A DNA stretch of 64,000 nt from an uncultured Williamsia sp. Lineage in GTDB: Bacteria; Actinomycetota; Actinomycetes; Mycobacteriales; Mycobacteriaceae. Positions 1,111 through 14,589 of this stretch are shown here, in pieces. Where the stretch lies: positions 248,001 through 312,000 of the forward strand of contig NZ_CANLWM010000003.1 of NCBI RefSeq assembly GCF_947494875.1, written 5' to 3'. Within the stretch, counting starts at the first letter, position 1, and each line of letters begins with the position of its first letter. A program made the position numbers and the translations under genes. A model generated the notes under the pieces. That model was not told the origin of the DNA. It did no database searches and saw only the letters and a list, made by a program, of their open reading frames with translations.

Positions 1111-1803
1111 ATGGCGCAACGCGGTGGGACCGCTTCGGAACGGGCGGCTCGGGCAGAGGTGACCCGACGACAGCTCGTGGACGCGGGGCGCGTCGTCTTC
1201 GCGCGTGACGGTTACGACGAGGTCGGCGTGGCCGACATCGTCGAGGAGTCCGGCGTCGGGACGCGGGGCGCCTTCTATCACCACTTCGCCGGCAAGCTGG
1301 ACCTCTTCCGCGAGGTCTACGCCGACGTCGAGCGCGATCTCGTGCTCCGCGCGATCGCCAGTCCCCCACCGGGATCGACGTGGGACCGGCTTCGCAACGG
1401 ACTGCACGACGTCGTCGATGCGGCCGCCGCGCCGGAGATCCGCCGCATCCTGTTCGAGGACGGACGTCGGGTGCTCGGGTGGGCGGAGACGCGTGCCGAC
1501 CGTCGCGGCGGGAGTTTCGCGATGATCCGGGACGCGCTCGTCGAGTGTGCCGACTCCGGGGTGATCGAGACCGACGACCCCGTGGCGCTGGCCCACGCCG
1601 TCATCGCCGTCGTGGAGGAATCGGCGATGATGACGCGATCCGATCGTTCGCGATCCACGTCGGCCCGACGCGCGAGAGCCTGTCTCGACCAGCTGCTCGA
1701 CGCGGTCTCGACACCGTCGGGCGCGGCGTCGACAGCGGGGCCGGAGGTGATCCCGAACCCGCGATCGCGGCGCCGGGCGGCGGACAAAGCTCCCCGCGGA
1801 TGA
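1111..1803 (+). CDS. TetR/AcrR-family transcriptional regulator
   Basis: 230 residues. The N-terminal helix-turn-helix is typical of TetR: TRRQLVDAGRVVFARDGYDEVGVADIVEESGVGTRGAFYHHFAGKLDLF, given here as a span over residues 18-66 (key pieces: ADIVEESGV, GAFYHHFAGK). The rest is the variable ligand-binding domain, ending in a basic tail (RSRRRAAD). The ATG at 1111 has no clear Shine-Dalgarno, so the message may be leaderless. The gene diverges from the substrate-binding protein gene and lies 143 bp before an amidohydrolase gene whose upstream region carries the local palindrome. It is one of two candidate regulators of region 1. Its ligand is unknown. Confidence 0.9.
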   Translation: MAQRGGTASERAARAEVTRRQLVDAGRVVFARDGYDEVGVADIVEESGVGTRGAFYHHFAGKLDLFREVYADVERDLVLRAIASPPPGSTWDRLRNGLHDVVDAAAAPEIRRILFEDGRRVLGWAETRADRRGGSFAMIRDALVECADSGVIETDDPVALAHAVIAVVEESAMMTRSDRSRSTSARRARACLDQLLDAVSTPSGAASTAGPEVIPNPRSRRRAADKAPRG

Positions 1804-1819
1804 CCATCGGACGCTATAG

Positions 1820-1839
1820 TGGAAATGCCGTTCTCGTCG
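1820..1839 (+). promoter_or_regulatory. Candidate operator, region 1 palindrome (site A)
   Basis: The bases GGAAATGCCGTTCTC (1821-1835) lie about 110 bp before the amidohydrolase gene. Near-copies occur in the divergent promoter regions at 14552-14589 (13 of 15 matches for each of two copies), at 8496-8532, and in looser form at 5951-5990. The site lies between genes, and several copies form imperfect inverted repeats, which fits a TetR-type operator. Regulator and function are inferred. Confidence 0.5.
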
Positions 1840-1946
1840 TCGAGAAGCCGCTTTCGCAGGGGCGGTCGGATCGTTGCCACACCGCGGGATGATCCGGGCG
1901 GCGGCCCCCCGAGACAGAACCGAAGCGTGAGATCAAAGGAGACACC

Positions 1947-3239
1947 ATGCGCGCCGAAGACATGATCCTCGTGAGCGTGGACGACCATCTGGTCGAGCCA
2001 CCCGACCTCTTCGAGGGTCGCGTTCCGAGCAAGTTCGCCGACGAGGCACCACGCGTCATCACGCAGAAGAACGGGTCGGAGGCGTGGACGTTCAACAACG
2101 CTGTCGTCCCCAACATCGGTCTTAACGCGGTCGCGGGTCGTCCCCGCGAGGAGTACGGCGTCGAACCGACGGCGTTCAACGAGATGCGACCCGGCTGCTA
2201 CGACATCCACGAGCGCGTCAAGGACATGAACGCCGGCGGTGTGCTCGGGTCCATGTGCTTCCCCTCGTTCCCCGGTTTCGCCGGACGGCTCTTCGCCAGT
2301 CACGGTGACAAGGAGTTGGGTGCCGCCATCACACGTGCGTACAACGACTGGCACATCGAGGAGTGGTGCGGCACCTACCCGGGACGCTTCATCCCGATGG
2401 CCATCCCGATCATGTGGGACCCCGAGGAGTGCGCGAAGGAGATCCGTCGCAACGCGGAGAAGGGCTGCCACTCGCTGAGTTTCACCGAGAACCCCGCGAC
2501 GCTCGGCTTCCCCAGCTTCCACGACGAGTACTGGGACCCGGTGTGGCAGGCCGCGTCGGACTGCCAGGTCGTCATCTCCGTCCACCTCGGCTCGAGTGGC
2601 AAGATCACCATGACCGCCGACAACGCGCCGATCGACGTGATGATCACGCTGCAGCCGATGAACGTCTGCTCTGCCGCGGCCGACCTCCTCTGGTCGCGCG
2701 TGGTGAAGAACTTCCCCGACCTGCGCTTTGCGCTGTCCGAGGGTGGCACCGGGTGGATCCCCTACTTCATCGACCGCCTCGACCGGACCTACGAGATGCA
2801 CCACCTGTGGACAGGGCAGGACTTCGCGGACAAGAAGCCGAGCGAGGTCTTCCGCGAGCGGTTCATGACCTGCTTCATCTCCGATCCAGTGGGCATCAAG
2901 CTCCGGCACGACATCGGCATCGACAACATCTCGTGGGAATGCGACTACCCCCACTCGGATTCGTCGTGGCCGAAGGCTCCGGAGGAGTTGGAGGCCGTGA
3001 TGGCCGGCGTCCCGGACGACGAGGTCAACAAGATCACGTACGAGAACGCCAGCCGCTGGTACAACTTCGAGCCGTTCAAGCACCGCTCGCGCGAGCAGTG
3101 CACGGTGGGCGCACTCCGCGAGGAGGCGGCCGGACACGACGTCGAGATCCGCAGCTTCGACCAGGGTCGGTTCGAGCGCAAGAAGGGTGTCGACCTCGGA
3201 GTGTTCAGCAAGGTCGCGAACTCGCCCAGCAATGCCTGA
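1947..3239 (+). CDS. Amidohydrolase family 2 protein (ACMS-decarboxylase-like)
   Basis: 430 residues, starting at an ATG with a strong ribosome site (AAAGGAG, 1935-1941). The fold is the metal-dependent TIM-barrel Amidohydro_2 family. The N-terminal SVDDHLVEPP (residues 10-19) replaces the usual HxH strand. His213 lies in VISVHLG, and ECDYPHSDSSW carries the likely metal ligand Asp333 and His336. Relatives include decarboxylases and hydrolases of catabolic pathways. In actinobacteria they often occur in steroid, terpene or aromatic degradation clusters. An SDR gene follows 24 bp downstream, probably in one operon. The exact reaction (decarboxylation or C-C or C-N hydrolysis) cannot be told. 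Confidence 0.85.
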   Translation: MRAEDMILVSVDDHLVEPPDLFEGRVPSKFADEAPRVITQKNGSEAWTFNNAVVPNIGLNAVAGRPREEYGVEPTAFNEMRPGCYDIHERVKDMNAGGVLGSMCFPSFPGFAGRLFASHGDKELGAAITRAYNDWHIEEWCGTYPGRFIPMAIPIMWDPEECAKEIRRNAEKGCHSLSFTENPATLGFPSFHDEYWDPVWQAASDCQVVISVHLGSSGKITMTADNAPIDVMITLQPMNVCSAAADLLWSRVVKNFPDLRFALSEGGTGWIPYFIDRLDRTYEMHHLWTGQDFADKKPSEVFRERFMTCFISDPVGIKLRHDIGIDNISWECDYPHSDSSWPKAPEELEAVMAGVPDDEVNKITYENASRWYNFEPFKHRSREQCTVGALREEAAGHDVEIRSFDQGRFERKKGVDLGVFSKVANSPSNA

Positions 3240-3263
3240 TCGCATCGGACGCCGGGGGCCGCG

Positions 3264-4031
3264 ATGAAGGTCGCGGTCGTCGGCGCCTCGAGCGGACTCG
3301 GTCGGTGCATCGCGGTGGGGCTCGGGGAGCGCGGGAACTCGGTCGCGCTGCTCGCGCGGCGCAAAGAGCGACTGCAGACGGCCGCCGCGGAGGCCGGTCC
3401 GTCGTCGGTCGCCATCGAGTGCGACGTCACCGACGAGCTGTCGAGCAAAACGGCGATCGACGAGGCGGCCGCGGAGCTCGGCGGCCTCGACGCACTGGTG
3501 TACGCCACGGGCATCGGCAGGATGGGGCCGCTGGTCGACACGACAGCGGACACGTGGTCCTCGCTGTTCGCGACGAACGTCACCGGTGCCGCATTGGTGA
3601 CATCGGCTGCGATCCCCCATCTGATGGAATCCGACGTACGCGTCGCCGTCTACCTGTCGTCGCTGAGCGCGTCGTTGACCGGGCCGTGGCCGATGCTGGG
3701 TGGGTATGCGGTGAGCAAGGCGGCTCTCGACAAGCTGATCGAGGCGTTCACCGAGGAACACCCAGACATCGGCTTCACCAGGCTCGCCGTGGGTGACACC
3801 TACGGCGGCAAGGGCGATTCGCAGACCGGGTTCCACCATGACTGGGATCCGGAGTTGTTCACGGAGTCGGTCAACGTCTGGCTGGAACGCAAGCTGATGA
3901 ACGGGGGTCTCATCCACCCCGATCACCTCGTGGGCATGGTGACGTCGATCCTGACGGTGGGGCGCAGCAGTTTCCTGCCGTCGGTCACCCTGACCCCGCG
4001 TCCCCCGAGTCGAGCGGGCGCGCCGCGGTAG
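3264..4031 (+). CDS. Short-chain dehydrogenase/reductase
   Basis: 255 residues. The Rossmann glycine motif GASSGLG (residues 7-13) follows a beta strand at the very N-terminus. The catalytic YAVSK gives Tyr148 and Lys152, with Ser candidates in LSSLSAS just before. It probably oxidises a hydroxyl or reduces a ketone with NAD(P). The C-terminal 30 residues are Pro/Arg-rich and unlike the family core. It lies 24 bp after the amidohydrolase and probably shares its transcript, which ends at the hairpin at 4050-4079. The substrate is unknown. Confidence 0.88.
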   Translation: MKVAVVGASSGLGRCIAVGLGERGNSVALLARRKERLQTAAAEAGPSSVAIECDVTDELSSKTAIDEAAAELGGLDALVYATGIGRMGPLVDTTADTWSSLFATNVTGAALVTSAAIPHLMESDVRVAVYLSSLSASLTGPWPMLGGYAVSKAALDKLIEAFTEEHPDIGFTRLAVGDTYGGKGDSQTGFHHDWDPELFTESVNVWLERKLMNGGLIHPDHLVGMVTSILTVGRSSFLPSVTLTPRPPSRAGAPR

Positions 4032-4049
4032 CGGTGTGGGTCGACGCAA

Positions 4050-4079
4050 GGCGGGCAGGTCCTTCGGGGCCTGCCCGCC
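4050..4079. terminator. Bidirectional terminator hairpin
   Basis: A perfect 10-bp stem, GGCGGGCAGG (4050-4059) with CCTGCCCGCC (4070-4079), encloses a 10-nt loop containing TTCG. It sits exactly between the convergent SDR and nitroreductase genes, so it can serve both. There is no U-tract, as is usual in actinobacteria. Confidence 0.75.
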
Positions 4080-4083
4080 GTAG

Positions 4084-4782
4084 TCATGTCCGGGGACCAG
4101 ACGATCCGGACCAGGGCGTCTCCCACGAATCACATGCGGTGACCTCGCGAAGAGGCTTGCGGCGCACCTCGCGATGCCGGCCGCGCGGCCACCCCGCCGT
4201 GACCGTCGCCGCGATCTGCCAGTCCGGCGGAACGCCGACCGCCTCCCGGAGTTCGTCCTCGAACACCGTGTGCCACAGCGACATCGCGGTTCCGAGGCCG
4301 TGAGCGCGGGCCGCGAGAGCGAAGTTCTGGACGGCGGGGAAGATCGATCCGCCGTGCAGCAGTTCCGACCCGACACCGGGCAGAGCGCGGACACAGAACA
4401 GCAGGCAGACAGGTGCGTCGCCGCCGGTCTCGGCATAATCGCGCATGGCTCGGTGGGCTCGCGTCCGTGCGTCGGCGTCGGGCGCGACGTCCCGCGGCGG
4501 GTCGGCGATCCCGTAGAACTGCTTCGCCTCATCCCAACTGCGCAGGGCTGACCGCGAGATGATGTCCCGCACCGACCGCGACTCGAGGACGACGAAACGC
4601 CAGGGCTGCTGGTTGCCACCCGAGGGCGCCCACGTGGCGGCCTCCAGGCATCGGCGGAGGACCTCGGTGGGTACGGGGTCGTCGCGGTAGCGCCGGATGG
4701 TGGACGCCGAGCGGAGCACGGTCCAGACGTCGTCGGACGCGTCGACGGCCCGGTCCGTCGATCCCGGGTCGACCGAGGTCAC
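4084..4782 (-). CDS. Nitroreductase-family FMN oxidoreductase
   Basis: 232 residues from a GTG whose bases overlap the TGA of the upstream DapB-like gene (GTGA, 4779-4782), so translation is probably coupled. The family signature is clear: LRSASTIRRYRDDPVP, then APSGGNQQPWRFVVL (FMN-phosphate binding) at roughly residues 52-66, and AVQNFALAARAHGLGTAMS near the middle. Such enzymes use FMN and NAD(P)H on nitro groups, quinones or unsaturated carbonyls, and some act as dehydrogenases in catabolic clusters. Operon pairing with the dehydrogenase suggests consecutive redox steps. The substrate is unknown. Confidence 0.88.
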   Translation of the reverse strand: MTSVDPGSTDRAVDASDDVWTVLRSASTIRRYRDDPVPTEVLRRCLEAATWAPSGGNQQPWRFVVLESRSVRDIISRSALRSWDEAKQFYGIADPPRDVAPDADARTRAHRAMRDYAETGGDAPVCLLFCVRALPGVGSELLHGGSIFPAVQNFALAARAHGLGTAMSLWHTVFEDELREAVGVPPDWQIAATVTAGWPRGRHREVRRKPLREVTACDSWETPWSGSSGPRT

Positions 4783-5885
4783 CAGTCGCCCCCGGGGACC
4801 ACCCCCAGCCAGGTGCCGCCACGCATCGGACCGGTCACCAGCGGCAGGTCCAGCGTGGACAACAAGCCCGGCGGGGCGTCCATGACCGCGGGGATGGCGT
4901 TGATCTCGCGCATCACGGTCGCGTAGGTGAGGCCACGGAGATTGCTCCCGCGCCCGTGCATCTCGATGTCGACCGTGTAGGTGGGCAGGCCGTCGACGAT
5001 GACCCGGTAGCCCCCGTGCGGGGACGGGTGCTGCGGCCAGTCCGGTGCGGAACTCTCCCCCATGCGGGTGATGTGTTCGAGGATGATGCGTTCCTCTCCC
5101 CCGAGGTGTCCGACGACGCGGAACCACATGCCGCCCATGGTCCCTGCCGGCACCGTGCCCGACGCGACCTCGTAGTCCTCCGGGGTGATCCACTTGTCGA
5201 TCGTCGTGGTCACCTCGTCGAGGGGCAGGCCCAGCCCGTCGGCGACGAGATGCACGATCGGTGCCCACAGCGCCTGCAGTCGGGCGGGATCGAACAGGGG
5301 CGCCTCGAACTCCGCCGGACGACCGAAGCCCATGAAGTCGAACATGATGTCCGGCTGGTCGATGCCGCCGTAGTCGAGGATCTCCTGCATGGTGATGGTG
5401 TCGACGCGCGCGCTGAAGCCGGACATCGTCAACGCGATGACGTCGTTGGCCCATCCCGGGTCGACACCGCTGGTGAACAGGCTGCTGTGCCCGTCCGCGC
5501 ACGCCGCGCGCAACACGTCGATCGACGCGGTGTCCGCGGCGGGCGGGTAACACATCGGGACCAGTGACGTGCACACCACGTTCTTGCCCGCGCGCAGGCA
5601 GGAGGCGACATCCTGGACGGCTTCCTCGTACCGGTAGTCGCCGGACGCGAAGTAGGCGACGACATCGGCGTCGAGGGCGAGTGCCGCGGCGTGATCGTTC
5701 GTGGCGACGATACCCGTGTCGGGGAGGCCGCAGAGGGATCCTGCGTCGCGACCGACCTTGGCCTGCGAGTGCACCACGACGCCGACGAGCTCGAGACCTG
5801 GGTGATTGATGACGGCCCGGAGTGCTGCGACGCCGACCTGACCCGGCCCCCAGATGATCACCTTCGGTTTCGGCCGCAGGCTCAC
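4779..5885 (-). CDS. DapB-like NAD(P)-binding dehydrogenase
   Basis: 368 residues from a GTG at 5885 preceded by AGGAGGGAG. An in-frame ATG 108 bp further upstream would run through the promoter palindromes and is rejected. A Rossmann motif (KVIIWGPGQVG, Gly13-x-Gly15-x-x-Gly18) opens the protein. The rest resembles the dihydrodipicolinate-reductase-like / diaminopentanoate dehydrogenase C-terminal family found across mycobacteria and rhodococci. Lysine synthesis is unlikely, as this length is too great for DapB. The gene diverges from an enoyl-CoA hydratase gene across a 149-bp region carrying two palindromes, and is followed by the nitroreductase. It probably reduces or oxidises a catabolic intermediate. 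Confidence 0.8.
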   Translation of the reverse strand: MSLRPKPKVIIWGPGQVGVAALRAVINHPGLELVGVVVHSQAKVGRDAGSLCGLPDTGIVATNDHAAALALDADVVAYFASGDYRYEEAVQDVASCLRAGKNVVCTSLVPMCYPPAADTASIDVLRAACADGHSSLFTSGVDPGWANDVIALTMSGFSARVDTITMQEILDYGGIDQPDIMFDFMGFGRPAEFEAPLFDPARLQALWAPIVHLVADGLGLPLDEVTTTIDKWITPEDYEVASGTVPAGTMGGMWFRVVGHLGGEERIILEHITRMGESSAPDWPQHPSPHGGYRVIVDGLPTYTVDIEMHGRGSNLRGLTYATVMREINAIPAVMDAPPGLLSTLDLPLVTGPMRGGTWLGVVPGGDW

Positions 5886-5950
5886 AGGACTCTCCCTCCT
5901 GGTGCGGCAGGGACGGGATCGTGGACCGAGGGAGCCGCAGACCCTCCGTG

Positions 5951-5990
5951 TGAGAACATGATAACCGTCATACGGAAATGGCCGTTTCCG
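5951..5990. promoter_or_regulatory. Candidate operator pair in divergent promoter (site C)
   Basis: Two elements sit between the DapB-like and enoyl-CoA hydratase genes. CGGAAATGGCCGTTTCCG (5973-5990) is an 18-bp palindrome broken at only one base pair. It matches the region 1 motif if one extra G is allowed. GAGAACATGATAACC (5952-5966) matches the motif on the minus strand at 10 of 15 positions. The spacing differs from sites A and B, so a second regulator could be involved. Confidence 0.5.
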
Positions 5991-6034
5991 CATCGTCGAG
6001 TGCGATGCGATCCCGCCCGTGCGAAGGAGTGTCA

Positions 6035-6943
6035 GTGCCCGACTACCAGTTCCTGAAGTGGGAGACGTTCGACGACGGCGCCATCGTCCGGATCTCGTTG
6101 AACCGACCTGAGACCCGAAATGCGCAGAACCGAGGGATGCTCGTCGAGCTGGACGAGGCGTTCGGCGCGGCGGAGTTCGACGACAAGGTGCGCGTCGTGA
6201 TCCTCGCCGGCGAGGGCAAGATGTTCTCGTCGGGACACGACCTGGGGTCGAAGGTGGCCATGGCCGAGTACACCCCGGGACCCGACCAGCATCCGACCGC
6301 CGGGAACAACGGCGGCAGCCGCGACGGCACCGAGAAGCGGATGCTCCAGGAGTGGCACTACTTCTTCCAGAACACCCTGCGGTGGCGGAACCTGCGCAAG
6401 ATCACCCTCGCGCAGGTCCACGGTGACGTGTTCTCCGCCGGCCTGATGCTCATGTGGGCCTGCGATCTCATCGTCGGCAGCGACGACACCCGCTTCGCCG
6501 ACGTGGTGGGCACCCGGCTGGGCATGTGCGGCATGGAGTACTTCGGGCACCCCTGGGAGTTCGGGCCCCGGCGGACCAAGGAGCTCATGCTCACCGGCGA
6601 CGCCATCGACATCGAGGAGGCACACCGCCTCGGGATGGTGAGCAAGATCTTCCCGCGCGAGACCCTCCCCGACCAGACACTGGAACTCGCGCGCCGGATC
6701 GCGCAGGTGCCCACCATGGCCGCGCTGATGATCAAGGAGTCGGTGAACCAGACCGTCGACTGCATGGGCTTCTACAACGCGCTGCAGTCGTGCTTCTCGC
6801 TGCACCAGCTCAACCACTCGCACTGGGCCGAGGTCCGGGAGGACAAGGTCCCGCGTGCCGACGAGTCACACGGTGTGCCGAACTGGCGGGAGGCGCCGCC
6901 CATCGTGATGTCGATGAAGGACCGTGTGCGCGCCGATGACTGA
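6035..6943 (+). CDS. Enoyl-CoA hydratase/isomerase family protein
   Basis: 302 residues from a GTG with GAAGGAG five bases upstream. An ATG at 5978 lies inside the palindrome and is rejected. Crotonase features include ISLNRPETRNAQN at the N-terminus, an oxyanion-hole strand MFSSGHDLGSKV, and QVHGDVFSAGLMLMWACDLIVG. The usual GGG of that last motif is changed to SAGLM. A 30-residue polar insertion follows the first oxyanion motif. The catalytic acids cannot be assigned safely, so hydratase, isomerase or hydrolase activity are all possible. The thioesterase gene begins inside the last codons, so the two are translated together. Confidence 0.87.
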   Translation: MPDYQFLKWETFDDGAIVRISLNRPETRNAQNRGMLVELDEAFGAAEFDDKVRVVILAGEGKMFSSGHDLGSKVAMAEYTPGPDQHPTAGNNGGSRDGTEKRMLQEWHYFFQNTLRWRNLRKITLAQVHGDVFSAGLMLMWACDLIVGSDDTRFADVVGTRLGMCGMEYFGHPWEFGPRRTKELMLTGDAIDIEEAHRLGMVSKIFPRETLPDQTLELARRIAQVPTMAALMIKESVNQTVDCMGFYNALQSCFSLHQLNHSHWAEVREDKVPRADESHGVPNWREAPPIVMSMKDRVRADD

Positions 6944-7373
6944 CACGGCCGTCGGCCGTTCGTCCGGGACGCCGATGCAGGTCGACCCGGGTCACCTGTT
7001 CGCGACGCTCCCCCTGTTCGACGTTCACGACTCGACGGAGTCGGTGGTCGTCGAACTCGAACACCGTGCGGACCTGGTGAACTCGCACGACGCGATCCAG
7101 GGCGGTCTGATCGCGACCCTGATCGACATCGCCGGTGGCCGTCTGGCGCTCACCAGCGCGCCGGACGGCCATGCGGTCACGACCGCGGACATGACCGTGC
7201 ACTTCGTGGCGCCCGTGCGGGTGGGACCCGCACGGGCGATAGCGACGCCGGTGCGCGTCGGGTCCCGGCTGATCGTCGTGGCGGTGGACGTGGTGGACGC
7301 CGGTGCCGGCGACCGGCTGTCCACGCGGAGCACGCTCACGTTCGCCGTCCTGGGTCCGCGCACCGCGACCTGA
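6936..7373 (+). CDS. PaaI/hotdog-fold acyl-CoA thioesterase
   Basis: 145 residues from the ATG at 6936, which overlaps the hydratase stop. A GTG at 6924 with GAAGGA just upstream would add four residues and cannot be excluded. The hotdog signature is plain: SHDAIQGGLIATLIDIAGGRLA (key residues His, Gly-Gly, Asp-Ile-Ala) then TTADMTVHFVAPVRVGPA. It probably releases CoA from a pathway acyl-CoA and so prevents CoA trapping. It ends a two-gene operon with the hydratase and meets the acyl-CoA dehydrogenase gene tail to tail 30 bp away. Confidence 0.87.
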   Translation: MTDTAVGRSSGTPMQVDPGHLFATLPLFDVHDSTESVVVELEHRADLVNSHDAIQGGLIATLIDIAGGRLALTSAPDGHAVTTADMTVHFVAPVRVGPARAIATPVRVGSRLIVVAVDVVDAGAGDRLSTRSTLTFAVLGPRTAT

Positions 7374-7402
7374 CGCGGTCGCAAAGAGGTCCCGGGTCCG
7401 CC

Positions 7403-8431
7403 TCAGGCCGAGGCGACCGACGTGTCGTAGCGAGCGGACGCGGCGCGGTCGAGTGCGTCGTCGGCGGTGCCCCAGACGAGAGCCCACGCCCGGGCGCGCC
7501 GGTAGTACAGCTGGGCGTCCTGCTCCATGCCGAACCCGTAGCCGCCGTGCACGTGGAGTCCGCGATAGGTCGCGTCGCGTGCCGCCTCGAAGGCGGCCGC
7601 GAACGCCATGGCCGACAGTTCCCGGACGCGTGCCGGCTCCTCCTCGAACGCCGCCGCCGCCCGCTGTGCGAGGAGGCGCGCGCCGTCCAGGGCCGTGGCG
7701 CAGTCGGCGAGAGGGTGCGACACCGCCTGGAACGTCCCGATGAGCGTCCCGAAAGCCGATCGTTGTCGCGCGTATTCCACACCCATCTCGAGCCCTCGTG
7801 CGCCGATCCCCACGAGTGCGGCAGCGGTCAGACAGAGCCACCGGTCGAGCGCGGACTGGAACACCACGGCCGCGTCCTCCCCGTCGGCCAGGACCTCGAG
7901 GTCGGTCGCGTGGACGTCGGACACCGGCATGCTGCCGATGTTCTCGACGGGCTCCTGTGCCGTGGGACGGGCCAGCACGAGACGGTGCTCGTGCAGACCG
8001 ATCACGGCGTCGGCGACAGCGCCGCCCGCCGCCATCCGCCACACCCCGCCACGCGTCGCACGCGGTACGAAGGTCACGGTCTGCTCGCCCGCCAACACCG
8101 CGGACAGCGTCTCGGCGGCCACGGGTGACGCCCCGGCGACCTCGCCGAGGGTCCAGGCGCCGACCTGCGCCTCGATCAACGGGGCCGGGGCGATGTGCCG
8201 ACCGTGGAGTTCCGCGATCAGGTTCAGGTCGCTCATCGAGCCGCCCCACCCGTCGTGGTCCTCCCCGACCGCGATGGGCACCCCGCCGGTCTCGGTGAGC
8301 ACCGCCCAGAGTGCGGCGTCGAACCCGAGCGGCTCGGCAGCACGGACGCGGTCGACCGTCGCCTCGCGCGCGTAGAGCGATCGGAACGCGTCCCGCAGCT
8401 GGGTCTGTTCGTCGGTGAGCGTGAGATCCAC
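7403..8431 (-). CDS. Acyl-CoA dehydrogenase, small-subunit type
   Basis: 342 residues from a GTG with AGGAG five bases upstream. It begins LTLTDEQTQLRDAFRSLYARE, and the C-terminal helices carry ARQRSAFGTLIGTFQAVSHPLAD and HVHGGYGFGMEQDAQLYYRRA. The middle domain is poorly conserved, and the usual TEP-GSD FAD segment is absent. This is typical of the degenerate partner in the heterotetrameric FadE enzymes known from mycobacterial steroid catabolism. The second dehydrogenase (8595-9770), with a good FAD segment, is divergent from the same promoter region, so the two may form an alpha2beta2 enzyme. That pairing is inferred. Confidence 0.85.
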   Translation of the reverse strand: MDLTLTDEQTQLRDAFRSLYAREATVDRVRAAEPLGFDAALWAVLTETGGVPIAVGEDHDGWGGSMSDLNLIAELHGRHIAPAPLIEAQVGAWTLGEVAGASPVAAETLSAVLAGEQTVTFVPRATRGGVWRMAAGGAVADAVIGLHEHRLVLARPTAQEPVENIGSMPVSDVHATDLEVLADGEDAAVVFQSALDRWLCLTAAALVGIGARGLEMGVEYARQRSAFGTLIGTFQAVSHPLADCATALDGARLLAQRAAAAFEEEPARVRELSAMAFAAAFEAARDATYRGLHVHGGYGFGMEQDAQLYYRRARAWALVWGTADDALDRAASARYDTSVASA

Positions 8432-8495
8432 GAGGACTCCTGTGTGAGGCGACGGTGCCCGGGCCCGTCGTCCGCCCGGGTGCCACCGTCCAGAC

Positions 8496-8532
8496 GGCAA
8501 CGCTGTTATTGTGTTGTGAGAATAGCATTATC
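8496..8532. promoter_or_regulatory. Candidate operator pair in divergent promoter (site D)
   Basis: GGCAACGCTGTTATT (8496-8510) on the plus strand and GAGAATAGCATTATC (8518-8532), which reads as GATAATGCTATTCTC on the minus strand, match the site A core at 10 and 11 of 15 positions. They lie between the two divergent acyl-CoA dehydrogenase genes in a locally AT-rich stretch, where promoters are expected. Confidence 0.45.
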
Positions 8533-8594
8533 GCTGTTGGCGAGGTCCGAGCCGATACCGTTGTCGGTCCCGCCGCGACGAGGAGGTCGACGCC

Positions 8595-9770
8595 GTGCAG
8601 TTCACCGACAGCCCCGAACTCGCGCAGCTCCGGACGGAGGTGCGCGACCACCTGACCGAGGTGATGACACCCGAGCGGCGCGAACGGATCTACCGTAGCG
8701 GCGTCTCGCACGACAAGGACCTGATCGCCGGTCTCGTCGACCGTGGCTGGTTCGTCCCCCCGCACCTCGCCGAGGCCGTCGGCGCGCCCGTCCGCACCGC
8801 GGTCGAGCAGAGCGCCATCGACGCGGAGCTGATGTACGCCGACGCCCCGACGTATCTCTCCGCGACCACGATGATGGTGGCGTCGGTGATCCATCACGCG
8901 GGGACCGACGAGATGAAGGAACGCATCCTCGGGCCGGCGCTGGGCGGCGAGGTCACCATCGCGCTCGGCTTCACCGAGCCGGAGTCCGGCTCCGACGTCG
9001 CCGCCGCGGCGACCCGTGCGGTGCGCGACGGCGACGACTGGGTCATCAACGGCTCGAAGATGTTCACCACCAACGGTCACATCGCCGACTACGTCTTCCT
9101 GCTCGCCCGGACCGACCCGACCGTCCCGAAGCACAAGGGCCTCACCATGTTCCTCGTGCCCATGGACACACCGGGGTGCGACGCGCAGGCGGTGTGGACC
9201 CTCTCCGGCGAGCGCACGAACATCACGTTCTACAGCGACGTGCGGATCGGCGACGAGCAGCGCATCGGCGACGTGAACGCCGGGTGGAGTGTGCTGAACA
9301 TCGCCCTGGTCGACGAGCACGCGTCGAGTTGGGGTCCGCACCTCGCCCGGCTCCTGCACCACGCCGAGGCCTGGGCGCACGAGAAGCGGGTGGACGACCA
9401 GGGTGTCACCGCCACCCCGATCGACGACCCGGCGACGCGGCGTCGGCTCGCCCGCATCGCCATGGAGGTCGAGGTGTCGGACCTCCTGCAGCAGCGCTGC
9501 CTGTGGATGTCGGGCAACGGCGACATGCCGATCGCCGAGGGTCCGATGTCGAAGCTGTACAGCACCGAGGCACTGGAGCGCGCGACCGAGGACGTCGTGG
9601 AGATGGTCGGCCCGGACGGGTTGCGTTCGTACCTCGAGCCGACCGCCCCCGAGGACGGGATGTTCGAGCAGACCATGCGGTTCAGCCTGGGCACCACGAT
9701 CTACGCGGGTACGAGTGAGGTCCAGCGCACGATCATCGCCCAGCGGGGCTTGAAGCTGCCGCGGACCTGA
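8595..9770 (+). CDS. Acyl-CoA dehydrogenase, catalytic-type subunit
   Basis: 391 residues from a GTG eight bases after AGGAGG. The FAD/substrate strand ALGFTEPESGSDV is near residue 125, followed by WVINGSKMFTTNGHIADY. The C-terminus has the conserved GTTIYAGTSEVQRTIIAQR. FAD-linked alpha,beta-dehydrogenation of an acyl-CoA is expected. The catalytic Glu position is not certain from reading alone. It is divergent from the smaller dehydrogenase and followed by a strong terminator, so it is transcribed alone. Its preference for branched or cyclic substrates is only inferred from the surrounding genes. Confidence 0.9.
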   Translation: MQFTDSPELAQLRTEVRDHLTEVMTPERRERIYRSGVSHDKDLIAGLVDRGWFVPPHLAEAVGAPVRTAVEQSAIDAELMYADAPTYLSATTMMVASVIHHAGTDEMKERILGPALGGEVTIALGFTEPESGSDVAAAATRAVRDGDDWVINGSKMFTTNGHIADYVFLLARTDPTVPKHKGLTMFLVPMDTPGCDAQAVWTLSGERTNITFYSDVRIGDEQRIGDVNAGWSVLNIALVDEHASSWGPHLARLLHHAEAWAHEKRVDDQGVTATPIDDPATRRRLARIAMEVEVSDLLQQRCLWMSGNGDMPIAEGPMSKLYSTEALERATEDVVEMVGPDGLRSYLEPTAPEDGMFEQTMRFSLGTTIYAGTSEVQRTIIAQRGLKLPRT

Positions 9771-9775
9771 GGCGC

Positions 9776-9807
9776 ACGCGTCCGCGGGGATCTCGCCGCG
9801 GACGCGT
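9776..9807. terminator. Bidirectional terminator hairpin
   Basis: A perfect 12-bp stem, ACGCGTCCGCGG (9776-9787) with CCGCGGACGCGT (9796-9807), has an 8-nt loop. It lies between convergent genes, and its right end touches the stop codon of the tetR gene. Confidence 0.78.
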
Positions 9808-10574
9808 CAGCTCTTCGCGCGGGTGCGTGGTGCGGTACGCGGTTTCGTCGTCTTGCGCGGCATGACGCGCGGGCCGGCGGCCTCGGACGGTGTCGTCACG
9901 GCCTGGTGACACCACGACCACATGTCGTCGACCGACAGCGGGACGTTGGGTCCGGTCAGGTTGAAGACACCGATCTGGGCGAAGCCCGACAGCGTCGTGC
10001 TCAGCAGCGACGTGATCTGTGCCGCCGTGAGATCCGTGCGGATCAGGCCCTCGTCCTGGCACGCCGCGACGATGCGCGCGAGGAGCCGGTGCTGGGGCTC
10101 CCACACCTTCCAGAAGTCCGCGGGCCGTTCGATCTCCAGGCTCAGGTGGTAGATCGTGACCATCCGGCCACCCTTGTCCTCCGACGACTGCGCGCGCGAC
10201 AGGAATCCCCGACAGAAGGCCTCCAGCTGCTCCATGGAGCCCTCGACGCCGGACACCTGTTGGCGGAGGTCCTCGGTGAACTGGCTCGTCAGGTCCTCGT
10301 ACAACGCGAGGAGCAACTCCTCCTTGCCGGCGAAATGCTGATAGAAGGCACGCAGGCTGAGGTTGGAGCGCTCGATGAGCGTCTGCACGGTGAAGTCGGC
10401 GCGTCCGGATTCCTCGACGAGATCGAGGGCCGCGGCGAGGAACCGCGAGCTCCGTGCCAGGGCTCGCGCCCGCGCCGCACTCAGACGGCGGTCGATGGTC
10501 CGCTGCTTCCACAGCGGCGCATCGCCGTCCGTCACATCGGCCGGTGCGTCCGACGCGGCCTCGTCACTGCTCAT
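9807..10574 (-). CDS. TetR-family transcriptional regulator
   Basis: 255 residues. After a 40-residue polar leader comes the HTH domain: AALDLVEESGRADFTVQTLIERSNLSL, then RAFYQHFAGKEELLLALYED (roughly residues 47-95). The C-terminus is a basic, Thr/Arg/Lys-rich tail (PRKTTKPRTAPRTRAKS). The gene lies 55 bp after the enoyl-CoA hydratase and may be the last gene of the HpcH operon. A weak copy of the region 1 motif sits in that gap. It is the better placed of the two candidate regulators of the sites at 8.5 and 14.5 kb. This link is inferred. Confidence 0.9.
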   Translation of the reverse strand: MSSDEAASDAPADVTDGDAPLWKQRTIDRRLSAARARALARSSRFLAAALDLVEESGRADFTVQTLIERSNLSLRAFYQHFAGKEELLLALYEDLTSQFTEDLRQQVSGVEGSMEQLEAFCRGFLSRAQSSEDKGGRMVTIYHLSLEIERPADFWKVWEPQHRLLARIVAACQDEGLIRTDLTAAQITSLLSTTLSGFAQIGVFNLTGPNVPLSVDDMWSWCHQAVTTPSEAAGPRVMPRKTTKPRTAPRTRAKS

Positions 10575-10592
10575 TTCCTCAGGTTACGACAT

Positions 10593-10610
10593 GTGAGAAT
10601 GCTCGTGCTC
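10593..10610 (-). promoter_or_regulatory. Weak candidate operator before tetR (site E)
   Basis: GTGAGAATGCTCGTGCTC lies 19 bp before the tetR start. Its GAGAATGC half matches the region 1 motif; the other half does not (8 of 15 overall). It could be an autoregulatory half-site, but chance is possible. Confidence 0.25.
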
Positions 10611-10629
10611 GCCTGACACGGCTGCGGGG

Positions 10630-11451
10630 TCACGACGACGTCCACTCGGGGTCGCGCTTCTCCATGAACGCGCGAGGCCCCTCGACGGCGTCCTTGGTCA
10701 GTGCCACCTTCATCCGATAGTTCTCCGCGATCAGCTCCGCCTCGTAGATCGGCAGGGTCAACCCCTTGCGGATGGCCATGCGTGTTCCCCGAACCGCCAG
10801 CGGCGCATTGCGATTGATGATCGCGGCCACCTCCCAGGCCCGGGACATCAGATCGTCGTGCGCGACGACCTCGGTGACGAGTCCGAGGTCGAACGCGCGC
10901 TCGACGGAGAGACGTTCGTGCTTGCCGGTCAGGGCCATTCTCATCGCGACCGGCAACGGCAACACCCGGGCCAGTCGGACGGCCTCGCGACCGGAGGTGA
11001 GACCGATGCTGACGTGGGGGTCCATGAACGCCGCCTGATCCGAGGCGATCGTCACGTCGGCCGTGGTGACGAAGTCCAGCCCCGCGCCGCATGCCAGGCC
11101 GTTCACGGCGCAGATGATCGGCTTAGTGGTCTGCAGCCACGGCGGGGTGGCCTCCTGCGGTGCGTCCCACTGGCGCATGGAGCTGAGGACGGGCTCGCCC
11201 TGGGTGTCGATCCCCGCTGCGTTGGTGGTGTCGTGCCCGTCTGCCTTGGAGACGTCCGCACCGACGCAGAGTGCTCTTCCCGTACCCGTGAGGATCAGTG
11301 TCCAGACGTCGTCGCGCGCCTCGAGTTCGGCGTAGACCCCCGCGAGTTCGGCGATCATCTCGTCGTTGATGGCGTTGAGCACATGCGGACGGTTCAGCGT
11401 GACACATGCTGTCCTGTCCCGGATCTCGACCTCGATGGTCTCGTACGACAT
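10630..11451 (-). CDS. Enoyl-CoA hydratase/isomerase family protein
   Basis: 273 residues from the ATG at 11451. Crotonase features: VTLNRPHVLNAIND, then ALCVGADVSKADG (oxyanion hole 1), PIICAVNGLACGAGLDFVTTADVTIAS (oxyanion hole 2, spans about residues 95-121) and FMDPHVSIGLTSGREAVRLARVLP. In the last segment the usual acid pair is not obvious, so hydratase activity is not assured. It is the fourth gene after the aldolase, dioxygenase and hydroxyacid dehydrogenase, with a 38-bp gap, and probably belongs to that operon. Confidence 0.87.
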   Translation of the reverse strand: MSYETIEVEIRDRTACVTLNRPHVLNAINDEMIAELAGVYAELEARDDVWTLILTGTGRALCVGADVSKADGHDTTNAAGIDTQGEPVLSSMRQWDAPQEATPPWLQTTKPIICAVNGLACGAGLDFVTTADVTIASDQAAFMDPHVSIGLTSGREAVRLARVLPLPVAMRMALTGKHERLSVERAFDLGLVTEVVAHDDLMSRAWEVAAIINRNAPLAVRGTRMAIRKGLTLPIYEAELIAENYRMKVALTKDAVEGPRAFMEKRDPEWTSS

Positions 11452-11489
11452 GGGGCCCTCTCGTCTCGTGCCTCTCGCGGCGACCGCTG

Positions 11490-12563
11490 TCATGAGGTCG
11501 TGATCGTGTCGTGCCGTGGGGCCACGGGCGTACCGAACAGTGCCTCGAACCGCTCCGTGAACGCCGGCCACACGCCCGGGTTGATCAGCCGTGGCGGGTG
11601 CGCACCGCTCAGCAGCTGCGTCCACTGCTGCGCGGTCGCGACCGCGATGTCGCGGGCCGCCTCGCGGGTGATCCCGGCGAGGTGCGGCGTGGCGACCACG
11701 GAGTCGAGAGCGAGCAGCGGCTCGTCGGCGGTCGGCGGTTCGGTGTGGAACACGTCGAGTCCCGCACCGGCGATCCGGCCCTCGGTCAGCGCGGAGTACA
11801 GCGCCTGCTCGTCGTGGATCGGACCGCGGGCCGTGGAGATGAAATATGCGGTCGCCTTCATCGTGGCGAACTCCCGCTTGCCGATCAGCCCCCGCGTCTG
11901 ATCGGTGAGCGGGCAGGTCACCTGGACGAAGTCCGCCCGCGCGAGCAGGTCCGGCAGGTCGGTCACCGTCACCCCGCGAGCCCGCGCGGCGGCGGGTGTG
12001 AGGTACGGGTCGAACACCAGCACCTCCATCGCGAAGGGTGCGCAGAGTTCGACGAGTCGACCACCGATCGCGCCCATCCCGATGACGCCCAGCGTCTTCC
12101 CCGACAACTGGCTCCCCTGCAGGGAGAGTCGATGACCCAGGCTGCCGGCCCGCAGGGCTCGGTCCGCCCGCGTCACGTTCTTGGCGAGGTCGAGCATGAA
12201 GCCCAGGGCGTGCTCGGCGACCGCCTCGGCGCCGGGACCGGAGTTGTTGCACACGGCGATCCCCGCGCGGGTGCAGGCCTCGACGTCGATCACGTCGTAA
12301 CCTGCGCCCGCGGAGCACACCGCGAGCAGATCCGGACACCGCCGGATCAGCTCCTCCCCCACGAGCCACTGGTCGCCGTCGGCGAACTGGCTGACGTCGG
12401 TCCGCGTGGCGACCTGGTACCCGTGGGCGCCCTGCAGCAGCGCCCAGGCCGCCTCGGGGTCGGCGAGGTCGAGGTGGACCACGTCGAGGTCGACGTCGGA
12501 GGCGGCGAGCACGTCACCCGCCGCGGGGTCCGTCCACCGTTCGTAGACGAGCCGAGGGGTCAT
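11490..12563 (-). CDS. D-isomer specific 2-hydroxyacid dehydrogenase
   Basis: 357 residues. Its ATG overlaps the stop of the dioxygenase gene (TGATG), so translation is coupled. The NAD-binding domain shows KTLGVIGMGAIGGRLVELC with downstream acidic FDPY. The catalytic regions are TARGPIHDEQAL (Arg), GLDVFHTEPP (Glu) and ATPHLAGIT (His). It converts a D-2-hydroxyacid to the 2-oxoacid or the reverse. Next to an HpcH/HpaI aldolase, which makes or cleaves 2-oxo-4-hydroxyacids or 2-hydroxyacyl compounds, it would handle a short 2-oxo or 2-hydroxy acid. The substrate is unknown. Confidence 0.88.
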   Translation of the reverse strand: MTPRLVYERWTDPAAGDVLAASDVDLDVVHLDLADPEAAWALLQGAHGYQVATRTDVSQFADGDQWLVGEELIRRCPDLLAVCSAGAGYDVIDVEACTRAGIAVCNNSGPGAEAVAEHALGFMLDLAKNVTRADRALRAGSLGHRLSLQGSQLSGKTLGVIGMGAIGGRLVELCAPFAMEVLVFDPYLTPAAARARGVTVTDLPDLLARADFVQVTCPLTDQTRGLIGKREFATMKATAYFISTARGPIHDEQALYSALTEGRIAGAGLDVFHTEPPTADEPLLALDSVVATPHLAGITREAARDIAVATAQQWTQLLSGAHPPRLINPGVWPAFTERFEALFGTPVAPRHDTITTS

Positions 12564-13675
12564 CAGTCGACCTTGGGCTTCGCCTGCGCCGCCTTGAACA
12601 TGTCCGCCAGTGCGCTGTCGACGTTCTTGTAGTCGTTCGTCGCGATGGCGCCGTCGCGGCCCGGGACCACGTCGTAGCCGAGGCGGAGATCCTTGTTCTC
12701 CATGTGGAAGTACTCCCGTCCCTGCGGCAGCCGGCGATCCGACAGCGGGACCTCCATCCACGCGCGCAGGAAGCACCGCGCCTTCTTCGGATCGGTCCCC
12801 GAGACGAAGTCGGACCGCGAGTGACACATCGCGAAGTTGTTCGCGACGCCGGCCTCGCCGGACTCCAGACGGAACTCCACCTGCTGGCGGATGAGCACCG
12901 TCCGCAGGTAGTCGATGGCCTCGGTCTCCTTCTCCGTGAACTCCCGTCCCAGGGCGTGCATGGCGGGCAGGATGCTGCTGTAGGTGAAGTTGATGCAGAT
13001 CTTGCCGTCCACCTGGGAGAACACGGGGACGTTGTACGGGGTCACATCCGGCTGATCGTCCGGCTGCTCACTGCGACGATGGTGCGGGAAGCCCTCGTAG
13101 AGCACCTCCAGGAGGTCGGGTCGGTTCTCCAGGACGGTGTTGTGCGCCGCCGGTCCGCTCGAGAACTGGCTGGCGCCACCCTCCATCGCGGGGTACACGC
13201 ACAGCAGCGACAGGATGTCCGCCGCGTCGTTGTGCATCGCGAGCTCCGCGCTCGACTTTGTGCCGCGGGCCGGCTGCACACCGTTGGGGAGGATCTCCTC
13301 CTGCACACGCACCATCCGGTGACCCATCGAGTTGTTCGACACGAGGTACCCGAGGTGGGTGCAGAAGGCCCAGTACATCCGCTCGAGTTCCTCGATCGAG
13401 TGCTCCTCGACCGGGAAACCACGGACGACGGCGAGGCCGCGTCCGAACATGATCTCGCGGTAGATCTTCTCGAAGTCGTCGTTCAGACCCGGATGACGAG
13501 CGTCCTCCGGGGTGATCTCGTCACGACCCTTGTGCGCGGTCGCGGCGAGGATCGAGCGCAGGGCCTCGAGGTTCTTGGCCGAGAGGTCGAACGCGAAGTC
13601 GTCCTTCCCCGTGAACGTCGCTCCGGTCCACGCCATCGGGTCGTCGACCTTCTGCTGATAGATCGCTGTGGGCAT
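12563..13675 (-). CDS. TfdA/TauD-family Fe(II)/2-oxoglutarate-dependent dioxygenase
   Basis: 370 residues from an ATG with GGAGG five bases upstream. The iron facial triad is visible: His148 and Asp150 in AMHNDAAD, and the distal His285 in MCHSRSDF. ARCFLRAWM further on supplies the 2-oxoglutarate-binding Arg. It should hydroxylate an unactivated carbon of an acid or ester, using O2 and 2-oxoglutarate. Length is somewhat above the TauD norm (about 280-300). It starts 51 bp after the aldolase gene and overlaps the hydroxyacid dehydrogenase gene. In this operon it could provide the alcohol that the later enzymes oxidise. Confidence 0.87.
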   Translation of the reverse strand: MPTAIYQQKVDDPMAWTGATFTGKDDFAFDLSAKNLEALRSILAATAHKGRDEITPEDARHPGLNDDFEKIYREIMFGRGLAVVRGFPVEEHSIEELERMYWAFCTHLGYLVSNNSMGHRMVRVQEEILPNGVQPARGTKSSAELAMHNDAADILSLLCVYPAMEGGASQFSSGPAAHNTVLENRPDLLEVLYEGFPHHRRSEQPDDQPDVTPYNVPVFSQVDGKICINFTYSSILPAMHALGREFTEKETEAIDYLRTVLIRQQVEFRLESGEAGVANNFAMCHSRSDFVSGTDPKKARCFLRAWMEVPLSDRRLPQGREYFHMENKDLRLGYDVVPGRDGAIATNDYKNVDSALADMFKAAQAKPKVD

Positions 13676-13725
13676 CTCATCCTCCAATCTGTCGGGCCCC
13701 CACCGCGATGTGCGGGCCGTCGTTG

Positions 13726-14532
13726 TCATCTGGTGGCGGTCATCCGGGTGGTGCCGGCCTCGTCGAGCGCACGCAGCGTCCGGACGCGGTCGCCGGCCGC
13801 GACGGTCATGAAGCCGAGATCGGTCCCGGCGGAGACGAACCGCAGACCCCGGTCGACGTAGCGCCGGAGCAGATCGACCGCGGGGACCCCCGCGACACCG
13901 AACGCCGGGCCGCGCGCCCGACAGGCGTCCGCGACGCGGCAGACGGCCTCGTCGAACACATCCGAGGCGAAGTCCTCGTGGACGCCGAGGTCGAGGGACA
14001 GGTCGTTCGCGCCGAGCAGGATCATGTCGACACCGGGTACGGCGGCGATCTCGTCCACGGCGGAGAGTCCCGCCCTCGACTCGACCATCACCGTCACGCT
14101 GGTGAAGGCCCGCGCCGCGACCATGACCTCCGCGACAGAACGGTGGCCGTATCCCGTGGCCGCGGTGGGACCCGAGACCGATCGGCGTCCCGTCGGGGGG
14201 AAATGCGCCGCGGCGACGACATCGGCTGCCTGACGTGCACTCTCGATGTGCGGGACGATCACCCCGGTCGCCCCGACGTCGAGTGCGCGCCCGATGCCGG
14301 ACGCGTCGTGGCCCGACACGCGCACCAGCGCCACGATTCCCGCGGAGACCGCAGCCGAACACAGGTCAGCAGCCGCGTCCAGCGGAAGGGCGGTGTGTTC
14401 GAGGTCGACGTACACCGCGTCGAACCCGCATGTGGCCGCGACCATGGGCACCACCGGTGAGCGAAAGTGCTGCACAGCCATGCACAGCACGACACCATCG
14501 GTGTCGAGTGCGTCGCGCAGACCGGCCGTCAC
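13726..14532 (-). CDS. HpcH/HpaI aldolase family protein
   Basis: 268 residues from a GTG at 14532. An in-frame ATG at 14568 would add 12 residues but lies within the operator palindromes, so the shorter form is preferred. Neither start has a good ribosome site. Family features: FDAVYVDLEHTALPLD, GATGVIVPHIESARQAADVV, TVMVESRAGL (metal-binding Glu) and DMILLGANDLSLDLG (metal-binding Asp). Such class II aldolases act on 2-oxo-4-hydroxyacids or 4-hydroxy acyl compounds with a divalent metal. It opens the operon with the dioxygenase, hydroxyacid dehydrogenase and hydratase. Its true substrate is unknown. Confidence 0.85.
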   Translation of the reverse strand: MTAGLRDALDTDGVVLCMAVQHFRSPVVPMVAATCGFDAVYVDLEHTALPLDAAADLCSAAVSAGIVALVRVSGHDASGIGRALDVGATGVIVPHIESARQAADVVAAAHFPPTGRRSVSGPTAATGYGHRSVAEVMVAARAFTSVTVMVESRAGLSAVDEIAAVPGVDMILLGANDLSLDLGVHEDFASDVFDEAVCRVADACRARGPAFGVAGVPAVDLLRRYVDRGLRFVSAGTDLGFMTVAAGDRVRTLRALDEAGTTRMTATR

Positions 14533-14551
14533 ACCGCAACCGTAGCGGATT

Positions 14552-14589
14552 GAGAACGACGTTTCCACGAATGGAGAAATGCTGTTCTC
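14552..14589. promoter_or_regulatory. Double operator in divergent promoter (site B)
   Basis: Two copies of the region 1 motif lie head to head between the aldolase operon and the thiolase-like gene. GAGAACGACGTTTCC (14552-14566) reads GGAAACGTCGTTCTC on the minus strand. AGAAATGCTGTTCTC (14575-14589) is on the plus strand. Each differs from site A at only two of 15 positions. This is the strongest example of the motif and fits joint control of both transcripts. Confidence 0.6.

Follow-up and report, generated by a model that had tools for sequence, protein, structure and literature searches.

The catabolic island and its genes

The stretch analysed here (the window, 64,000 nucleotides) comprises positions 248001–312000 of contig C3 in the 4.77-Mb, 17-contig genome of an uncultured Williamsia sp.; positions preceded by C3 follow the contig numbering, and all others are counted from the start of the window. 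It contains the right end of a 61-kb catabolic island (C3:203–264 kb) that starts 45 kb upstream, and in the promoter regions of this island there recurs a short near-palindrome whose regulator is very probably the TetR-family protein encoded at 9807–10574 (TetR84), as judged by comparing the locus with related genomes. Genes were called with a codon-usage script, and the 57 gene calls of the island (genes 34–90) were all scanned against Pfam. They include acyl-CoA ligases, acyl-CoA dehydrogenases (ACADs), crotonases (one of them double), MaoC proteins and CaiB-type transferases, together with two P450s, DapB-like oxidoreductases, a TauD/TfdA protein, an HpcH aldolase, two thiolase-like/DUF35 pairs and four Amidohydro_2 proteins. 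Four genes encode TetR proteins, namely TetR35 (C3:204509–205216), g68 (C3:241821–242432), TetR75 and TetR84, the last two lying in the window. The genes and candidate operators of this part of the island are as follows, with families from Pfam unless another source is given; scores of 15-mer sites come from the position weight matrix (PWM) and those of 16-mer sites from the half-site model, both described below.

1111–1803, plus strand: TetR75 (TetR_C_41), unsupported as regulator of the motif
1821–1835: 15-mer candidate operator before the DitZ-like amidohydrolase gene; exact match to the motif as first described, 20.4 bits, PWM seed
1947–3239, plus strand: AMH76, Amidohydro_2, DitZ/PtmU3-like (PDB 8uyr DitZ, and PtmU3), ligand residues kept; possible diiron hydroxylase
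3264–4031, plus strand: short-chain dehydrogenase (SDR; adh_short)
4084–4782, minus strand: nitroreductase-family protein (PF00881)
4779–5885, minus strand: DapB-like oxidoreductase (DapB_N, DAP_DH_C; scanned as 4779–5993); the gene caller prefers a GTG start at 5885 over ATG at 5993
5952–5989: candidate operator pair in the DapB-like/enoyl-CoA hydratase gap; weak 15-mer at 5952–5966 (8.3 bits), 16-mer at 5974–5989 (18.0 bits)
6035–6943, plus strand: enoyl-CoA hydratase/isomerase family (ECH_1; NCBIfam PRK08290, 388 bits), 81–82% identical in five mycobacterial stretches
6924–7373, plus strand: 4HBT thioesterase-like protein; gene call starts at 6975
7403–8431, minus strand: acyl-CoA dehydrogenase; IpdE2 model 115.7 bits, under its cutoff of 450
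8496–8510 (11.9 bits) and 8518–8532 (23.0 bits, seed): candidate operator pair, 22 bp apart, between the two acyl-CoA dehydrogenase genes
8595–9770, plus strand: acyl-CoA dehydrogenase
9807–10574, minus strand: TetR84, TetR family (TetR_N PF00440, 34.9 bits against a cutoff of 24), proposed regulator of the motif
10595–10610: 16-mer candidate operator at the TetR84 promoter, 16.6 bits, centre 28 bp before the TetR start
10630–11451, minus strand: enoyl-CoA hydratase/isomerase family
11490–12563, minus strand: D-2-hydroxyacid dehydrogenase family
12563–13675, minus strand: TauD/TfdA-family protein (PF02668), 79–81% identical in five mycobacterial stretches
13726–14532, minus strand: HpcH/HpaI aldolase family (PF03328); start uncertain, from 14445 (gene call) up to 14568 (open reading frame)
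14552–14566 (19.5 bits) and 14575–14589 (17.2 bits): candidate operator pair in the HpcH/thiolase-like gap, both seeds
14611–15759, plus strand: thiolase-like protein (Thiolase_C_1; PDB 4u4e, 9myr, 6ok1), possible retro-aldolase
15756–16181, plus strand: DUF35 partner, ChsH2 C-terminal type (PF01796, PF12172)

Form and distribution of the motif

A preliminary description had placed copies of the motif at 1821, 5952–5989, 8496–8532, 14552–14589 and 10595, and we found sites at each of these places. When its 15-mer was searched with up to three mismatches there were six matches in the window, compared with a mean of 1.4 in 100 shuffles, none of which reached six; two of the six (23072 and 32629) lie inside called genes and are probably chance matches. 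The motif proved to be a near-palindrome with half-site G[AG]nAAYG and a spacer of either 1 bp (15-mer) or 2 bp (16-mer), the aligned sites giving the odd dyad GAKAAYGNCRTTMTC. The second copy in the 5952 region is a 16-mer, GGAAATGGCCGTTTCC at 5974, rather than a 15-mer, and the copy at 10595, described as a weak form, is in fact a good 16-mer, GAGAATGCTCGTGCTC, at the promoter of TetR84. The cluster had also been placed in the first 16 kb of the window, from 1820; it does not begin there, since further sites lie upstream of the window (C3:203117, 209671, 211405, 222847, 227213, 243778/243800 and 245562) and the regulon is larger. Paired sites are about 22–23 bp apart (5952/5974, 8496/8518, 14552/14575 and C3:243778/243800).

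The PWM was built from six seeds (window 1821, 8518, 14552 and 14575; upstream C3:203117 and 227213), and the window seeds score 17–23 bits. With a half-site model that allows spacers of 1 or 2 bp, 15 island sites scored at least 14 bits, and of these 14 were intergenic and one lay inside gene 63 (8 of 9 intergenic when the six seeds are left out), although 94.3% of the island is coding by our own gene calls. One extra site of 14.4 bits was found outside it, at C3:169068, in the 144 kb scanned.

Across the genome, the first pattern searched, GAGAAYNNNRTTNNC, had 10 matches, five of them in C3:203–263 kb (two of those upstream of the window), and the strict 15-mer pattern GRNAAYRNYRTTNYC had seven, six of them in the island; the reversed controls gave none. 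The lone strict 15-mer outside the island (C10:42473–42487) lies between acyl-CoA dehydrogenase and SDR genes and may mark an extra regulon member. With two mismatches allowed, the loose dyad had 183 genome matches compared with 17 for its control, which makes the loose consensus unspecific. That the shared words are merely chance in a GC-rich genome is a reading we give practically no weight: the abundance of loose matches would favour it, but the reversed controls (0 for these strict patterns, 17 vs 183 for the loose one) and the conservation at orthologous promoters relative to coding windows, described below, contradict it. It is also very unlikely that the motif is real but serves as the site of a general regulator or as a promoter element. 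Most sites do lie less than 150 bp from a gene start, as promoter elements would, and TATAGT immediately precedes the 1821 site, but six of the seven strict genome matches fall in one island, and in different genera the dyad goes with a single TetR family.

Conservation in mycobacteria

A profile scan of genome contigs with a 15-sequence TetR84 alignment identified at least 80 loci, the best 80 of which were taken; 51 of these, with 61–69% identity of the best segment, were counted as TetR84 orthologues, all from genomes titled as mycobacterial genera or Mycobacteriaceae, with species partly repeated. The best 80 also included a second tier (52–57% identity) with another neighbourhood and more distant loci from Frankiales, Streptomyces, Actinomadura, Prauserella, Amycolatopsis and others. 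Regions between orthologous genes were scored with a half-site model derived from this genome only, using spacers of 0–3 and a threshold of at least 12 bits. A site was found in 47/47 AMH-a/TetR84 regions (all with spacer 2), in 41/41 thiolase/HpcH regions (best spacer 1 in 28, 2 in nine and 0 in four), in 36/41 ACAD/ACAD regions (spacer 1 or 2 best in 35; pairs 22 bp apart) and in 31/35 regions between the ECH and DapB genes (spacer 1 or 2 best in 29); as background, 69 of 1876 coding windows of 250 bp contained a site with the same spacers. In the SDR40/ligase39 region the count was 12/20 at 12 bits as a 16-mer and 0/20 at 13 bits as a 15-mer. No site was found between TetR84 and the gene convergent with it (0/41 loci), a weak control because this gap is short. 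In alignments of four orthologous regions the site columns hold 1.71–1.97 bits, compared with 0.96–1.26 elsewhere, and the distance between the centres of primary and secondary sites peaks at 22 bp and, less strongly, at 24.

An earlier 15-mer PWM at 13 bits had identified sites in 34/41 thiolase/HpcH, 33/41 ACAD/ACAD and 25/35 ECH/DapB regions, with sites in 0.64% of the 1876 coding windows. A 15-mer-only model was nonetheless dropped because the AMH-a promoters, which matched as 15-mers in 1/48 loci, carry 16-mers. Upstream of the AMH76 orthologues in mycobacteria we found no counterpart of the 1821 site (0/16 at 10 bits with the 15-mer PWM).

We also compared the island with 80-kb stretches from five mycobacteria (M. 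aurum, M. hippocampi, M. setense, Mycobacterium sp. OAS707 and sp. URHD0025), in all of which 41 of the 57 gene calls were matched at 50% identity or more. The 16 that failed this threshold are TetR35, genes 36, 37 and 38, ACAD49 (48–50%), ADH57, SDR70, SDR71, DapB72, gene 73, SBP74, TetR75, AMH76 (found in three of the five), SDR77, 4HBT81 and DUF35-90; for some of them the counterpart may be located outside the 80 kb that were retrieved. The gene order is rearranged block-wise, genes 78–90 adjoining gene 39 in the mycobacteria and lying at the far end here, and in both arrangements the block promoters carry motif sites. The stretches make up 1.1–1.3% of each genome and contain 5/10 (M. aurum), 4/9, 6/20, 6/9 and 8/11 of the strict 16-mers. 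A further run of five strict 15-mers was seen in M. aurum at C1:3113414–3181028 (3.11–3.18 Mb). A plasmid search gave only two short haloarchaeal matches.

Two neighbouring features deserve mention. At the left edge of the window, the gene at C3:247916–249070 (window 1–1070, minus strand) encodes a periplasmic-binding-protein-like Peripla_BP_6 protein that is 68–72% identical in three of the five mycobacterial stretches; no motif site was found upstream of it. After the island, at window 17957–26700 and C3:264405–274723, come an aldehyde dehydrogenase gene (Pfam) and a yrbE/mce-like operon, the latter assigned by reading these later gene calls as resembling mycobacterial mce-type runs, with no Pfam basis. 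Homologous runs adjoin or sit inside several of the mycobacterial islands, with a motif site upstream in two.

The regulator

Control of the whole pathway by one regulator, either the TetR at 9807 or that at 1111, had been proposed at the outset, and homologue loci and footprints argue for the former, TetR84, leaving the latter, TetR75, unsupported. Among 151 genomes of the family, 33 (its own included) gave TetR84 matches with E-values of 1e-20 or less; the seven listed genus mates had no match at this threshold, and in its own genome, where 17 of 86 first-look candidates were scored, TetR84 was the only one. Of the 42 non-self matches, 29 were taken as loci of about 3.6 kb, and a dyad of at least 13 bits was present in all 29, flanking the tetR gene on both sides in 23. 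At the distant homologues, which are about 30% identical, these dyads mostly read GAGAAT/C...ATTCTC, and the neighbourhoods are unlike that in the window (20 stretches compared). Distant homologues with GAGAATnnnATTCTC or GGTAATGTCATTACC dyads adjoin ACAD, ligase, hydratase or P450 genes, an arrangement that points to related regulons of one family. TetR84 itself has the TetR_N domain, and a palindromic candidate operator stands at its own promoter both here (10595) and in the 47 orthologous loci, as in autoregulated TetR systems.

The alternative that a different island TetR, TetR75 or g68, binds the motif appears very improbable. Both are TetR proteins, and g68 is 55–59% identical in all five mycobacterial stretches, but the motif accompanies TetR84 homologues in all 29 distant loci taken, while a g68-like match occurred in only one of the 20 neighbourhood stretches compared (28% identity), and the g68 operon has another dyad in its promoter region. 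TetR75 was rejected as the regulator: nothing in the five orthologous islands reaches 50% identity to it (46% in one), it is 25.8% identical to TetR84, and its start is preceded by a different palindrome, CCTAC-N13-GTAGG (1080–1102). This palindrome is probably the operator of TetR75 itself.

A model of TetR84 from 25 sequences (mean pLDDT 81, pTM 0.69) had chains of FadR, EthR2 and KstR2 as its top five PDB hits in Foldseek, with TMq of 0.48–0.60; the modelled fold is compatible with an acyl-CoA-type ligand, though not decisive.

Extent of the predicted regulon

By a hand count that assumes same-strand runs to be operons, the predicted TetR84 regulon comprises 12 promoter regions, from which about 37 of the 57 genes would be transcribed. 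A regulon under one regulator is well supported by the footprints in other species; it does not obviously extend to the CYP125/Ltp2-like operon in the middle of the island, genes 61–68, which lacks the site and has its own TetR as its last gene, g68. In igr-type operons the order is cyp125, fadE28/29, chsH1/H2, ltp2, and genes 61–67 have this gene set in one run (a P450, two ACADs, a MaoC/FAS1-dehydratase, a DUF35 protein and an Ltp2-like protein). The best PDB match of the gene 61 P450 is CYP125MRCA, which the name marks as a reconstructed ancestor of CYP125. All eight genomes searched for the Ltp-like gene 67 gave a match, the best being 81–83% identical in the seven mycobacterial ones and 61% identical in the one of Frankiaceae; a second copy within the same genome, at C4:350399, is 66% identical. 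As no TetR84 site precedes it, this igr-like operon is not supported as a member of the TetR84 regulon.

The promoter of genes 61–68 (C3:235421–235660) has a different dyad, a candidate second operator, which reads CCGGACA...TGTCCGG in mycobacteria and CGTACA...TGTACG here. This dyad was read by eye; a strict palindrome search by script found none in this promoter. Upstream of these genes in the five mycobacteria there is, again by eye, a TTGAC element with TAGACA about 17 bp further. Without a TetR84 site, with another dyad and with a TetR of its own, the operon may be controlled separately.

Enzymes and candidate substrate

The protein at 1947–3239 (AMH76) matched PDB entry 8uyr, "DitZ", with an E-value of 1.7e-118, and PtmU3 at 5.4e-40; AMH-a matched DitZ at 1e-56, AMH55 matched 4dzi at 2e-95 and PtmU3 at 4.6e-19, and AMH50 was compared solely in an alignment of the four proteins, which are 23–36% identical to each other. 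PtmU3 and AibH2 are amidohydrolase-fold nonheme diiron hydroxylases, PtmU3 acting in diterpenoid biosynthesis, and the AibH2 ligands are given in the same source (PMC7782822, partial text). All four island Amidohydro_2 proteins keep the PtmU3/AibH2 metal-ligand set, D-x-H, H, E and D[YF]PH followed by D/E. To judge from the name only, DitZ is named in diterpenoid-cluster style; none of the open-licence papers listed in our literature search was, by title, on this enzyme. Resin acids hydroxylated at position 5 occur in Pseudomonas abietaniphila, where the enzymes are unknown (PMC13063091, partial text), and an enzyme of the PtmU3/DitZ type could explain them.

The thiolase-like protein at 14611 has GGSS in the region of the thiolase cysteine motif and apparently lacks the usual nucleophilic cysteine. 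It matched 6ok1, "Lipid-transfer protein", at 1.1e-42, an entry we take to be an Ltp2/DUF35 aldolase. From these likenesses, together with the CYP125-like P450 and the Ltp-like gene 67, we infer that the island enzymes may carry out hydroxylation and retro-aldol cleavage of isoprenoid acyl-CoAs.

As substrate we favour a polycyclic isoprenoid acid. That the regulon is right and the substrate another, such as an alicyclic (naphthenic-type) acid, a methyl-branched fatty acid or a steroid side chain only, is a strong contender with a chance not far below even: many island proteins are generic beta-oxidation enzymes, and the CYP125-like and Ltp2-like proteins point to sterol-type side chains. Weighing on the other side are the four proteins with the PtmU3/AibH2 ligand set, the place of PtmU3 in a diterpenoid pathway, and the style of the DitZ name.

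Relation to known systems

KshA has a Rieske domain and HsaC an extradiol dioxygenase domain; the Pfam results for the 57 gene calls include neither of these, nor a KstD-type domain, unlike what a 9,10-seco steroid cluster would show. The system resembles the KstR regulon (Rv3574/MSMEG_6042) of lipid/cholesterol catabolism in having an autoregulated TetR repressor and a short palindrome in many divergent promoters, with two copies in one region (PMC1995591, partial text). It differs in the operator, which for KstR is TnnAACnnGTTnnA, its AAC and GTT separated by 2 bp, according to the same partial text, the sites here being AAY-G-n-C-RTT or AAY-G-nn-C-RTT; the island sites do not fit the KstR operator, since the dyad centre differs. 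A further difference is that the igr-like operon of the island is a diverged copy, by the Ltp identity given above, without the TetR84 site. No entry named KstR was among 52 sequence matches, a comparison by entry name. KstR2 and the acyl-CoA-responsive FadR resemble TetR84 in being among the top five structural hits of its model, and they differ in sequence (16–18% identity) at the modest TMq values above.

The kstR3/HBC operon of Mycolicibacterium neoaurum (PMC10398937, partial text) likewise has a TetR gene next to those for an aldolase (atf1), an acyl dehydratase and an acyl-CoA dehydrogenase and is separate from the sterol cluster, but it is described there as one small operon upregulated with phytosterols; this comparison is by description only. 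The dit clusters of Pseudomonas and Paraburkholderia (PMC13063091 and PMC10710418, partial texts) are terpenoid catabolic clusters that also combine a P450 with a sterol-carrier-like protein, and among solved structures the nearest to AMH76 is that of a protein named DitZ; a DitA-like Rieske dioxygenase, by contrast, is not among the 57 gene calls. The likeness to PtmU3 and AibH2 is the ligand set kept in the four island proteins, which are otherwise only 23–36% identical to each other. TetR-controlled acyl-CoA catabolism is a known kind of system; we did not find this operator, regulator family or island described in searches of open-licence papers, and the partial text of PMC4810484 contains nothing on the island. 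The suggestion of an undescribed catabolic system is plausible.

Proposed model

We consider it likely that TetR84, the dyad operator and a 12-promoter regulon form one system governing a catabolic island that degrades an isoprenoid acid via CoA thioesters. The operator, the identity of the regulator and the gene set are supported by the sequence comparisons; repression, ligand, chemistry and substrate we infer as follows. TetR84, most likely a dimeric repressor, would bind dyads of G[AG]nAAYG halves with a 1- or 2-bp spacer, often two dyads 22–24 bp apart, that is about two helical turns and on the same face, and would control its own gene and the promoter regions counted above. An acyl-CoA derived from the island substrate probably releases it, by analogy with other TetR regulators of acyl-CoA catabolism. 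The substrate would most likely be an isoprenoid acid of terpenoid or sterol-like type, polycyclic or branched: the P450s and ligases may prepare the side chain, the PtmU3/DitZ-type "amidohydrolases" may hydroxylate the CoA esters, and the thiolase-like/DUF35 pairs may cleave the resulting hydroxy-acyl-CoAs in a retro-aldol reaction.

Several points weigh against this model. The strict 15-mer pattern was written after the sites had been seen and is fitted to them, for which reason independent tests were sought, and the 2-bp spacer entered the model once the AMH-a promoters had been inspected. The strict 16-mer pattern is unenriched in this genome (1/6 matches in the island, control 1), and in the five mycobacteria its reversed controls gave 2, 6, 7, 4 and 3 matches genome-wide; of the 29 strict 16-mers in the stretches, four were marked as coding, within or near HpcH, where gene boundaries were extrapolated. 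Strict 15-mers in the mycobacteria lie mostly outside the stretches (inside, 2/15 in M. aurum, then 2/22, 2/27 and 2/27; these counts cover four of the five genomes, the fifth having 38 matches), and we suspect that those outside reflect TetR84 paralogues. The orthologue loci are related, some belonging to one species, and so are not independent trials. The CYP125/Ltp2-like operon, having no site and its own conserved TetR, means that a single regulator does not obviously control everything. Without a Rieske, extradiol or KstD-type domain in the island the ring chemistry is a guess, and the possible role of the four "amidohydrolases" as diiron hydroxylases rests on homology.

A broader and more doubtful proposal is that the island represents an undescribed and widely conserved actinobacterial route for mineralising polycyclic isoprenoids, in which the alpha carbon of the acyl-CoA would be quaternary and beta-oxidation therefore blocked. 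Diiron beta-hydroxylation, ring opening by the thiolase-like/DUF35 proteins and side-chain removal by the CYP125/Ltp2-like operon would then be combined under two TetRs, TetR84 with tandem GAGAAYG operators and g68 for the side-chain operon.

The regulator, its operator and about 37 genes now form a testable unit, and a reporter built on the operator could show by its induction which compound the island acts on. The island is shared in part by 51 mycobacterial loci and in large part by the five stretches compared here. If it is true that the amidohydrolase-fold proteins are diiron oxygenases, many "hydrolases" of environmental actinobacteria would be misnamed.

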